IMG/VR virus record: IMGVR_UViG_3300035107_000209
Location: 1-23,041 of that record
Strand: one strand, 5' to 3'
Source: a virus
Length of the DNA stretch: 23,041 nt
Numbering within the stretch: position 1 is the stretch's first letter; each line of letters begins with the position of its first letter. The notes beneath the pieces are model-generated. The model saw nothing but the letters and a program-made list of their open reading frames with translations. It was not told where the DNA came from and searched no databases. A program made the translations under genes and the position numbers. Shown here one piece after another: positions 4,106-8,201 of the stretch.

Positions 4106-4113
4106 TATTTATA
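4106..4113 (-). promoter_or_regulatory. T4-type late promoter for gp48-gp53-gp27
   Basis: TATAAATA on the minus strand, about 36 nt upstream of the gp48 start. It faces the plus-strand box at 4070-4077, so the two late transcripts should overlap by roughly 18 nt at their 5' ends. Its last base pair is the A of the gp4 start codon. Confidence 0.75.
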
Positions 4114-4544
4114 TGAGTTACAAGGGAAGATTCAAACCAAAGAACTATAAAAAGTACAAAGGTGACCCAACTAAGGTGATATATCGTTCAATGTGGGAAT
4201 TGAGATTCATGAAATATTGTGATAAGAATCCCAGTATATTAGAATGGTCTAGTGAGGAGATTATTATACCATATCGTGGATTAGATAAAAGAGTCCATAG
4301 ATATTTCCCAGACTTCTGGATAAAATACCAGAATCAACAAGGACAGATAGTAAAAGAAATCATTGAGGTCAAACCTAAAGCACAAACCAAGAAACCCACT
4401 AAGAAGGGTAAACATTATGGTAAATATATAAGAGAGGCAAGAACTTATGCAATCAATCGTGCAAAGTGGGAAGCTGCAGAAGAGTATTGTTTGGATAGGG
4501 GATATAAGTTTAGAATAATAACAGAAGACCATTTGAAAGCGTAA
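4113..4544 (+). CDS. 4: Head completion protein gp4 (PD-(D/E)XK nuclease fold)
   Basis: A 143-aa homologue of T4 gp4 (gp50/4), needed to finish DNA-filled heads before tail joining. A nuclease-type active site is visible: Glu29 in RSMWE, Asp67 in the YFPDFWI strand, and the EVK triad at 85-87, followed by a Lys-rich loop (PKAQTKKPTKKGK). This matches the PD-(D/E)XK layout. Length is close to T4 gp4 (about 150 aa). Start: AAGG 7 nt upstream, and about 30 nt from the late transcription start. It stands alone on plus between the gp48 operon and the large RNA locus. The gene ends in a strong hairpin. Confidence 0.8.
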   Translation: MSYKGRFKPKNYKKYKGDPTKVIYRSMWELRFMKYCDKNPSILEWSSEEIIIPYRGLDKRVHRYFPDFWIKYQNQQGQIVKEIIEVKPKAQTKKPTKKGKHYGKYIREARTYAINRAKWEAAEEYCLDRGYKFRIITEDHLKA

Positions 4545-6881: not shown

Positions 6882-6900
6882 TTGATTATAGGAGTATATT

Positions 6901-7629
6901 ATGGGATTACCTAAACTTAATACAGTTGAGTATTTCGAAACATTACCTGTTTCAAAGATTGAGGCAAAGTTTCGTCCATTTAATGTTAAGGAACAAAAGA
7001 TATTGTTGCAAACATTAGAAGATGGAACACCACAATCAATATCAAATGGAATGATGAATTTGATAAGGTCATGTTCAGAACTACAAGACAGTGATTGGAC
7101 TGTAGATAAACTCAGTAATACAGATTTAGAATGGTTGTTTATTCAAATCAGAATGAAATCTGTAGGTGAGTCTACAAAGGTTATACTACCATGTGTTAAA
7201 CAACCAGAAGGATGTGATGGACAAACACCTGTCAATATTGAATTTGATAAGATGAGAATAGAAGGTGAACTCAAAGAACCTAAAGTAATGATAACAGATA
7301 CTATAGGTGTAATGATGAGAATACCAAGTTATTCAGATGTTCAAGAATTATATGAGTCTGGTATGGATATTGGAACAGAAAATATCTTTAAAGTGTTAAA
7401 CAAATGTATAGAACAAATCTTTGATGCAGATAATGTGTATGAGACGAAAGAATTTACTGAAAAAGAAGTAAATGACTTTGTTGATGGACTAACTGTAGAC
7501 CAGTTCAATACTTTAATGGAATGGTTTAGTTCAGTTCCCAAAATGGTATATGATGTAGAATTTGCATGTAGTAAATGTGGACAGACTCAAGAACAAGAAC
7601 TTTCTGGATTGCAGAATTTTTTCGTCTAG
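6901..7629 (+). CDS. 26: Baseplate hub assembly protein gp26 (tail chaperone, frame 0)
   Basis: A 242-aa protein of the T4 gp26 family (T4 about 208 aa), long listed as a hub component but absent from T4 baseplate structures, which points to a chaperone role. Two cysteine pairs, Cys98/Cys105 and Cys223/Cys226, could form a zinc site. The N-terminus (KIEAKFRPFNVKEQKILLQTLED) is the typical family start. Strong RBS (AGGAG, 7 nt). The stop at 7627-7629 lies 4 nt after a T-TTT-TTC heptamer (7617-7623). A -1 slip there would replace the last residue by 62 residues of the gp51-like frame, giving a 303-aa fusion. The genes that follow are the chaperone extension, a holin-like protein and the tape measure, as in lambda-type G/GT-H order. 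Confidence 0.75.
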   Translation: MGLPKLNTVEYFETLPVSKIEAKFRPFNVKEQKILLQTLEDGTPQSISNGMMNLIRSCSELQDSDWTVDKLSNTDLEWLFIQIRMKSVGESTKVILPCVKQPEGCDGQTPVNIEFDKMRIEGELKEPKVMITDTIGVMMRIPSYSDVQELYESGMDIGTENIFKVLNKCIEQIFDADNVYETKEFTEKEVNDFVDGLTVDQFNTLMEWFSSVPKMVYDVEFACSKCGQTQEQELSGLQNFFV

Positions 7630-7811
7630 CCCTTTCTCATGAGACACTTGCAAATTACATACAAACTAATTTTGGATTAACACAACACCATAAGTGGTCG
7701 TTGACAGAACTGGAAGAAATGTATCCTTGGGAAAGGGAAATTTATATTTCCCTACTATTGCAACATCTAGAAGAACTAGAGATGCAAAGGAAACAGGCAC
7801 AAAATAAATAA
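7575..7811 (+). CDS. 51: gp51-like hub assembly catalyst / frameshift extension of gp26
   Basis: This frame overlaps the end of gp26 in -1. Its only ATG (7575) lies inside gp26 and has no Shine-Dalgarno, and the residues before FFRLALSHE are just the out-of-frame reading of gp26 codons. The conserved-looking part starts at the slippery site: FFRLALSHETLANYIQTNFG, then WSLTELEEMYPWEREIYISLL and a C-terminal helix LQHLEELEMQRKQAQNK. The PWEREIY-type motif recalls small marine-phage proteins annotated as gp51, far shorter than T4 gp51 (249 aa). I think it is made mainly as a gp26-51 fusion by -1 frameshifting from 7623; independent translation from 7575 is less likely. Confidence 0.65.
   Translation: MWTDSRTRTFWIAEFFRLALSHETLANYIQTNFGLTQHHKWSLTELEEMYPWEREIYISLLLQHLEELEMQRKQAQNK
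7617..7623 (+). promoter_or_regulatory. Candidate -1 ribosomal frameshift site (T-TTT-TTC)
   Basis: The heptamer fits X-XXY-YYZ in the gp26 frame (codons TTT TTC). After slipping, both tRNAs re-pair with TTT TTT and reading continues CGT CTA GCC in the gp51-like frame. It lies just before the gp26 stop codon. I see no strong downstream stem or pseudoknot. Confidence 0.6.
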
Positions 7812-7823
7812 TAGGAGAGTATT

Positions 7824-8201
7824 ATGGCCGATGAAAGATTTAGTGGAGACATGTCTCGTAATGAAGTCGAAATGGATTTGTCCAAGTTCATGGAGATGAT
7901 TCAAGAGAATGCAGCCCTTAAAGACGAAATAAGAGACCTTAAAGCAAACGATACAGTGAACCCTTGGCAAAAGTGGATTCACCTTGCAAGAGCAGTAGAT
8001 TCATGGAGAATCTGGCCTCGTGCATTTTTAAGTGTCTACATCATATTAGTGTACTATGCAGCTATGTGGTTCATGGAATTACCAGAACCATCAATGGAAC
8101 AATCTGGATTGATTTCAATCCTAGTTGGAGCAGGAGCTGCTTGGTTTGGACTATATGTAAATAGTGCAGCTAAAGAACACGACACTAACGCAAAAAAATA
8201 G
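7824..8201 (+). CDS. Holin-like two-transmembrane protein
   Basis: A 125-aa protein with a charged, coiled-coil-like N-terminus (about residues 15-45), a Trp/Arg-rich juxtamembrane stretch (PWQKWIHLARAVDSWRIWPR), and two hydrophobic helices at about 67-86 and 95-114. A short polar tail follows (NSAAKEHDTNAKK). The architecture resembles phage and gene-transfer-agent holins that disrupt the inner membrane, but T4 holin T itself looks different. RBS AGGAG 7 nt upstream. It lies between the gp26/gp51 chaperones and the tape measure, an unusual place for lysis. A tail-assembly membrane tether or a DNA-entry function is the alternative. Confidence 0.5.
   Translation: MADERFSGDMSRNEVEMDLSKFMEMIQENAALKDEIRDLKANDTVNPWQKWIHLARAVDSWRIWPRAFLSVYIILVYYAAMWFMELPEPSMEQSGLISILVGAGAAWFGLYVNSAAKEHDTNAKK

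Follow-up and report, generated by a model that had tools for sequence, protein, structure and literature searches.

The gp26 locus and the frame that overlaps it

The window analysed here (the whole stretch of 23,041 nucleotides) is a 23-kb IMG/VR virus fragment of a marine T4-like phage, for which no close isolate was found among the phage records. It carries a gp26-like gene and an overlapping -1 reading frame upstream of a tape measure candidate (Table 1). The product of gp26 matched both the T4 base plate protein family PF12322 (E 4e-49, 167.7 bits against a cut-off of 24.5) and phrog_150 (E 3.6e-50) over nearly its whole length.

Table 1. Features of the gp26 locus in the window
Feature	Coordinates	Strand	Basis
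AGGAG, ribosome binding site of gp26	6890..6894	+	sequence reading
gp26-like tail assembly chaperone, putative short form, 242 aa (start ATG 6901)	6901..7629	+	PF12322 and phrog_150 matches; N-terminal fold resembling 2OB9
Slippery heptamer T_TTT_TTC, gp26 frame	7617..7623	+	sequence, conservation across loci
TAG stop of the putative short form, one codon (GTC) past the heptamer	7627..7629	+	sequence
-1 frame extension of the putative long form, gp51-like domain, 62 aa + stop	7623..7811	+	phrog_634, pN/pS, gp51 alignment
125-aa gene, two TM stretches, between extension and tape measure candidate	7824-8201		
Tape measure candidate, 641 aa	8214..10139	+	position, length, composition

A preliminary description had placed a T-TTT-TTC heptamer in the gp26 frame 4 nt before the stop. 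The heptamer is indeed present in that frame (codons TTT and TTC), but its distance to the TAG is 3 nt, and a scan of the whole gene revealed it to be the only in-frame XXXYYYZ heptamer in the window's gp26. The open stretch of the -1 frame extends from 7575 to 7811, and a -1 shift at the heptamer reads QNFF-RLALSHETLANYIQTNFGL and continues to the stop ending at 7811, for a virtual fusion product of 303 aa. For the frame entered in this manner, described earlier as protein-like, the match to phrog_634 ('baseplate hub assembly catalyst', E 1.2e-26) started from ORF residue 11, near the heptamer. Moreover, positions 228–279 of phrog_150 also matched the -1 frame, directly after the part matched by gp26. 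As this one family spans gp26 followed by the -1 frame, it must already contain proteins in which both parts are continuous. A PDB sequence search with gp26 gave no match, and the same search with the extension gave only helical matches at chance level.

Among PDB structures, the predicted model of gp26 (mean pLDDT 84) best matched the HK97 gp13 tail assembly chaperone (2OB9), with a Z of 7.0 (that is, below 8) over 83 residues and the next row at 4.7, which is suggestive but not conclusive of a chaperone fold. The -1 extension was predicted to be entirely helical, and Foldseek with the 64-aa extension returned nothing meaningful. Further downstream, the 641-aa tape measure candidate had no match in PHROGs and none above cut-off in Pfam. 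The gene in the corresponding slot of Ochrobactrum phage ORM_20 matched the tape measure family phrog_167 (E 1.1e-6), and Prochlorococcus phage P-HM1 gave a weak tape measure match. In the order of chaperone, extension and tape measure proposed earlier, as in lambda G/GT-H, the 125-aa gene intervenes before the tape measure, which is a candidate only.

The protein encoded at 7824-8201 matched phrog_10198 (function unassigned), with two membrane stretches by sequence reading and a holin-like character by appearance only, and is kept at 125–128 aa in the window's relatives L001 and L003-L007. Rhizobium phage RHph_Y68 and ORM_20 carry a similar-looking protein of 108–136 aa in this slot, and these two are mutually related, with no detectable relationship to that of the window. 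Elsewhere in the window (4113-4541), a gp4-like head closure protein (phrog_218) also matched the TnsA-like endonuclease N-terminal domain PF08722 (E 2.4e-24).

Conservation of the slippery heptamer

Alignment of the heptamer across related phages, proposed earlier as a check, involved loci picked by their gp26 similarity and not by the heptamer itself, in a scan biased toward cyanophage-type gp26. A first tabulation revealed T_TTT_TTN in the gp26 frame near the stop in 95/95 loci, with T_TTT_TTC exactly 3 nt before the stop in 91 of these. In total, the heptamer was present in 103/103 tabulated gp26-type loci of this kind, stemming from cyanophages, part of the Straboviridae, Menderavirus, and Rhizobium, Ochrobactrum and Variovorax phages. 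It was found in distant phages, among the Straboviridae in Aeromonas phage Aeh1, Vibrio phages nt-1, PVA8 and vB_VmeM-32, and Cronobacter phage S13, and outside this family in Stenotrophomonas phage BUCT608, Variovorax phage V45v66, ORM_20, RHph_Y68 and P-HM1. Additional Aeh1 relatives and two more divergent contigs carry it as well. A scan seeded with the Variovorax phage found no relatives, and a joint profile of all -1 domains proved too divergent to scan the collection with.

With synonymous codons sampled according to the usage of the respective gene (smoothed with the pool), the heptamer was expected in 18.5 of the 42 loci left after clustering at 70% identity, whereas all 42 carried it (log10 product -19.8). 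Because related sequences are not independent, this product is overstated, and the 15 deeper lineages obtained at 50% identity (15/15 against 6.0 expected) provide the safer figure. Conservation of the heptamer therefore far exceeds chance. In the selected phages in which the +1 frame was read, no extension comparable to that in the -1 frame was found.

A conserved run of T at this site might also point to slippage of RNA polymerase, yielding mixed mRNAs that are read in either frame. However, the run mostly consists of six T followed by C, whereas RNA polymerase slippage usually requires about nine (PMC5009743), and with the X_XXY_YYZ phase kept in every locus and the run not lengthened over evolution, we deem transcriptional slippage very unlikely. 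Since the window is an IMG/VR fragment, and its relative L006 displays an isolated frame break early in gp26, it could furthermore be argued that an indel from assembly or sequencing has split one continuous gene. This explanation is already refuted by conservation of the junction, which recurs in isolates belonging to many lineages as well as in independent contigs, leaving it a vanishingly small chance. The break in L006 (near 3115) stems from an apparent single-base indel that leaves the rest intact, and is probably an assembly error.

Selection, start codons and possible stimulators of the -1 frame

Comparison of 13 pairs of relatives gave a pN/pS of 0.08–0.24 for the -1 frame over the 50 codons after the heptamer, a stretch in which the 0 frame is interrupted by several stops. 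On the other side of the heptamer, it is the -1 frame of these pairs that contained stops, and its pN/pS there was mostly >1. Purifying selection hence acts on the 0 frame up to the heptamer and on the -1 frame beyond it, so that translation of the -1 frame seems to start about there and not at ATG 7575. This ATG is the sole start codon of the window's -1 frame before the conserved domain and lacks an SD, which bears out the earlier statement that the overlapping frame has no start of its own backed by a ribosome binding site. Considered as a true start, ATG 7575 was rejected, being absent from the 82%-identical relative L003 and located in a part of the -1 frame that is not conserved among relatives.

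Across the 103 loci, ATG or GTG occurred in the first 12 codons past the heptamer in 64, TTG as the sole start in 13, a start only upstream of the heptamer in 5 (window included), and none of these three codons before the conserved domain in 21 (among them Aeh1, S13, ORM_20 and the window relatives L003-L007). The 64 loci might in turn indicate that two separate proteins are made, with gp51 started independently or by termination-reinitiation near the gp26 stop. TAATG or TGATG overlaps in PVA8, nt-1, RHph_Y68 and BUCT608 fit such a scheme, which is also how depositors annotate gp51. However, the 21 start-less loci argue against it, the start annotated in several cyanophages falls on a codon that is Leu in other phages, and neither the downstream gp51 starts nor ATG 7575 are preceded by an SD. 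The public records of Aeh1 (L100), VmeM-32 (L102), S13 (L104) and ORM_20 (L108) carry no annotation for the gp51 frame.

An SD-like element upstream of the heptamer bears on the same question. At least 4 nt complementary to the anti-SD were found 18 to 5 nt before the heptamer in 93/103 loci, compared with ~21% of equally sized windows in the interior of gp26, and the match ended 10 nt before the heptamer in 66 loci. This spacing alone proves little because the residues E-G-L are conserved, but the Glu codon of the element is GAG in 23/31 (background 0.32, P 2e-6, uncorrected for relatedness) and GGA is over-used for Gly. For dnaX and many IS elements, stimulation by such an SD is established (PMC5009743). 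As the element lies ~25 nt before the downstream ATG, which is too far for initiation, and is equally common in loci without a start codon, separate initiation of gp51 appears improbable. The window lineage itself has no good SD-like element.

With regard to downstream RNA structure, RNAalifold on 16 diverse sequences yielded zero pairs. Stretches of 40–90 nt after the heptamer were slightly more stable than their shuffles, with a mean z of -1.1 to -1.6 against -0.5 for the interior control. As the window's own z was +0.9, however, no common RNA structure is claimed. Several cyanophage loci (L043, L047, L048, L051, L070 and others) carry a short palindrome such as GGTCCATATGGACC soon after the heptamer, just after the gp26 stop, whose arms vary but stay complementary; this palindrome is not general.

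Proposed short and long chaperone forms in T4-related phages

A profile of the virtual fusion aligned to five T4-type gp51 proteins with E 3.9e-24 over 242 columns, straight through the junction (FFRLALSH in the fusion, VFKLLVNP in T4-type gp51), and T4-type gp26 proteins aligned to the fusion as far as the junction and then ended. Correspondingly, gp26 of RB14 consists of the PF12322 domain only, and its gp51 of PF12322 plus the C-terminal extension. T4-group phages thus encode both forms as paralogous genes, as divergently oriented neighbours in RB14, phiAS4, PhT2 and vB_SdyM_006 or in tandem in Pseudotevenvirus leB, and both the predicted frameshift and the two-gene arrangement are found within the Straboviridae. 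Homologues with separated genes, which had been named as evidence against a frameshift, therefore do exist in the T4 group, but the gp51 encoded there combines a gp26-like N-terminal domain of its own with the extension, which also speaks against gp51 being started separately at the frameshift-type loci.

Retention of both frames without a conserved heptamer, named likewise, was seen in the Ackermannviridae-type group (L014, L016, L112, L113-L127). In Det7 with its relatives, in Kuja and in Vibrio phage D524, a -1 frame with a PWH motif overlaps gp26, and the heptamer is replaced by ATT-TTC, CTT-TTT or CTT-TTC. The sequence ATTTTCATTTAATTTTTGAAATTGATTTA around the gp26 stop of the Det7 group is nearly invariant, down to ~70% protein identity.

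Site conservation, the codon-usage null, the switch of constraint, the start-less loci and the gp51 alignment together support the initial proposal of a -1 frameshift joining gp26 and the gp51-like domain. Arguing against the frameshift are the window's lack of an SD-like element or clear downstream RNA structure, the ATG or GTG near the stop in the 64 loci (most cyanophage loci included), the heptamer-less Ackermannviridae-type group, and the 125-aa gene before a tape measure candidate without a family match. Weighing these, we are highly confident from the sequences that this would be a tail assembly chaperone locus, with gp26 as the short form and the -1 frame supplying the C-terminal domain of a frameshifted long form, the extension being predicted to be translated solely as part of the fusion, as in lambda G/GT.

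The sequences themselves establish the site, the frames, selection, conservation and homology; slippage, its rate and a role in assembly are what we infer. Ribosomes would translate gp26 from its ATG, most of them reading one further codon after T_TTT_TTC before stopping at the TAG, and a minority would slip back one base (TTT TTC re-paired as TTT TTT), bypass this stop and yield the 303-aa fusion. The possible HK97-like fold, the position and the literature suggest a role like that of lambda G/GT. By analogy, the tape measure protein would be held by numerous short and a few long copies, tail tube protein would be recruited through the extension, and both forms would leave before tail completion. 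In the T4 group, the two forms would come from two genes, gp26 (short) and gp51 (long). In a broader scenario, whose chances we consider evenly balanced, most T4-superfamily phages outside the T4 group would use a canonical -1 frameshift, aided in most lineages by the SD-like element situated 10 nt before it. In T4, Acinetobacter and related phages, a gene duplication would later have replaced this mechanism with two genes, and Ackermannviridae-type phages would have switched to shifting non-canonically at the nearly invariant ATT-TTC-ATT-TAA junction.

Vladimirov et al. reportedly already named the tail chaperone genes of T4-like phages in 2022, and the core of the finding is therefore known. 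The PRFect paper (PMC10885494) cites that work for T4-like phages in which a short gene is accompanied by a longer fusion gene, and in PMC12846349 it is the reference for poly-T slippery signals in the chaperone genes of T4-like phages. The frameshifted chaperone, known from lambda and reported earlier for some T4-like phages, here appears conserved across most T4-related lineages sampled. The present analysis adds the wide census, the SD-like element ~10 nt upstream of most sites, and the heptamer-less Ackermannviridae-type group that keeps both frames.

Reading gp26 and gp51 as short and long forms explains the gp26-like domain inside T4 gp51. If true, gp51 records with their own start are probably wrong, and Aeh1, S13, VmeM-32 and ORM_20 show no gp51 because annotation skipped a frame that needs no start. 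Moreover, a 2016 review (PMC5009743) states that long-tailed phages widely conserve G-T frameshifting 'except T4', and this exception would then refer to the T4 group proper instead of T4-like phages in general.

Compared with known systems, the locus is homologous in sequence to T4 gp26/gp51 (PF12322, phrog_150), the short form corresponding to gp26 and the fusion to gp51, but T4-group phages rely on a pair of paralogous genes in place of a frameshift. Cyanophage gp26/gp51 (Kyanoviridae) share the identical order, heptamer and distance to the stop, although they are deposited as two genes and the window's gp26 is just 31–36% identical to theirs. The chaperones of Vandenendeviridae and Andersonviridae likewise have a conserved poly-T -1 frameshift site ending the short chaperone gene, but with GTTTTT as the motif (PMC12846349). 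HK97 gp13, the top structural match to the N-terminal domain of gp26, shows 8% identity to it, with the match limited to residues 1–88 of 242 and gp26 having further domains. With lambda gpG/gpGT, finally, the locus has in common a slippery site close to the stop of the first frame that leads into an overlapping -1 frame. This likeness comes with no claim of sequence similarity, the gp26 family being PF12322, and differs from lambda in the 125-aa gene that stands between extension and tape measure candidate and in the SD-like element that most of the window's relatives carry upstream of the heptamer.
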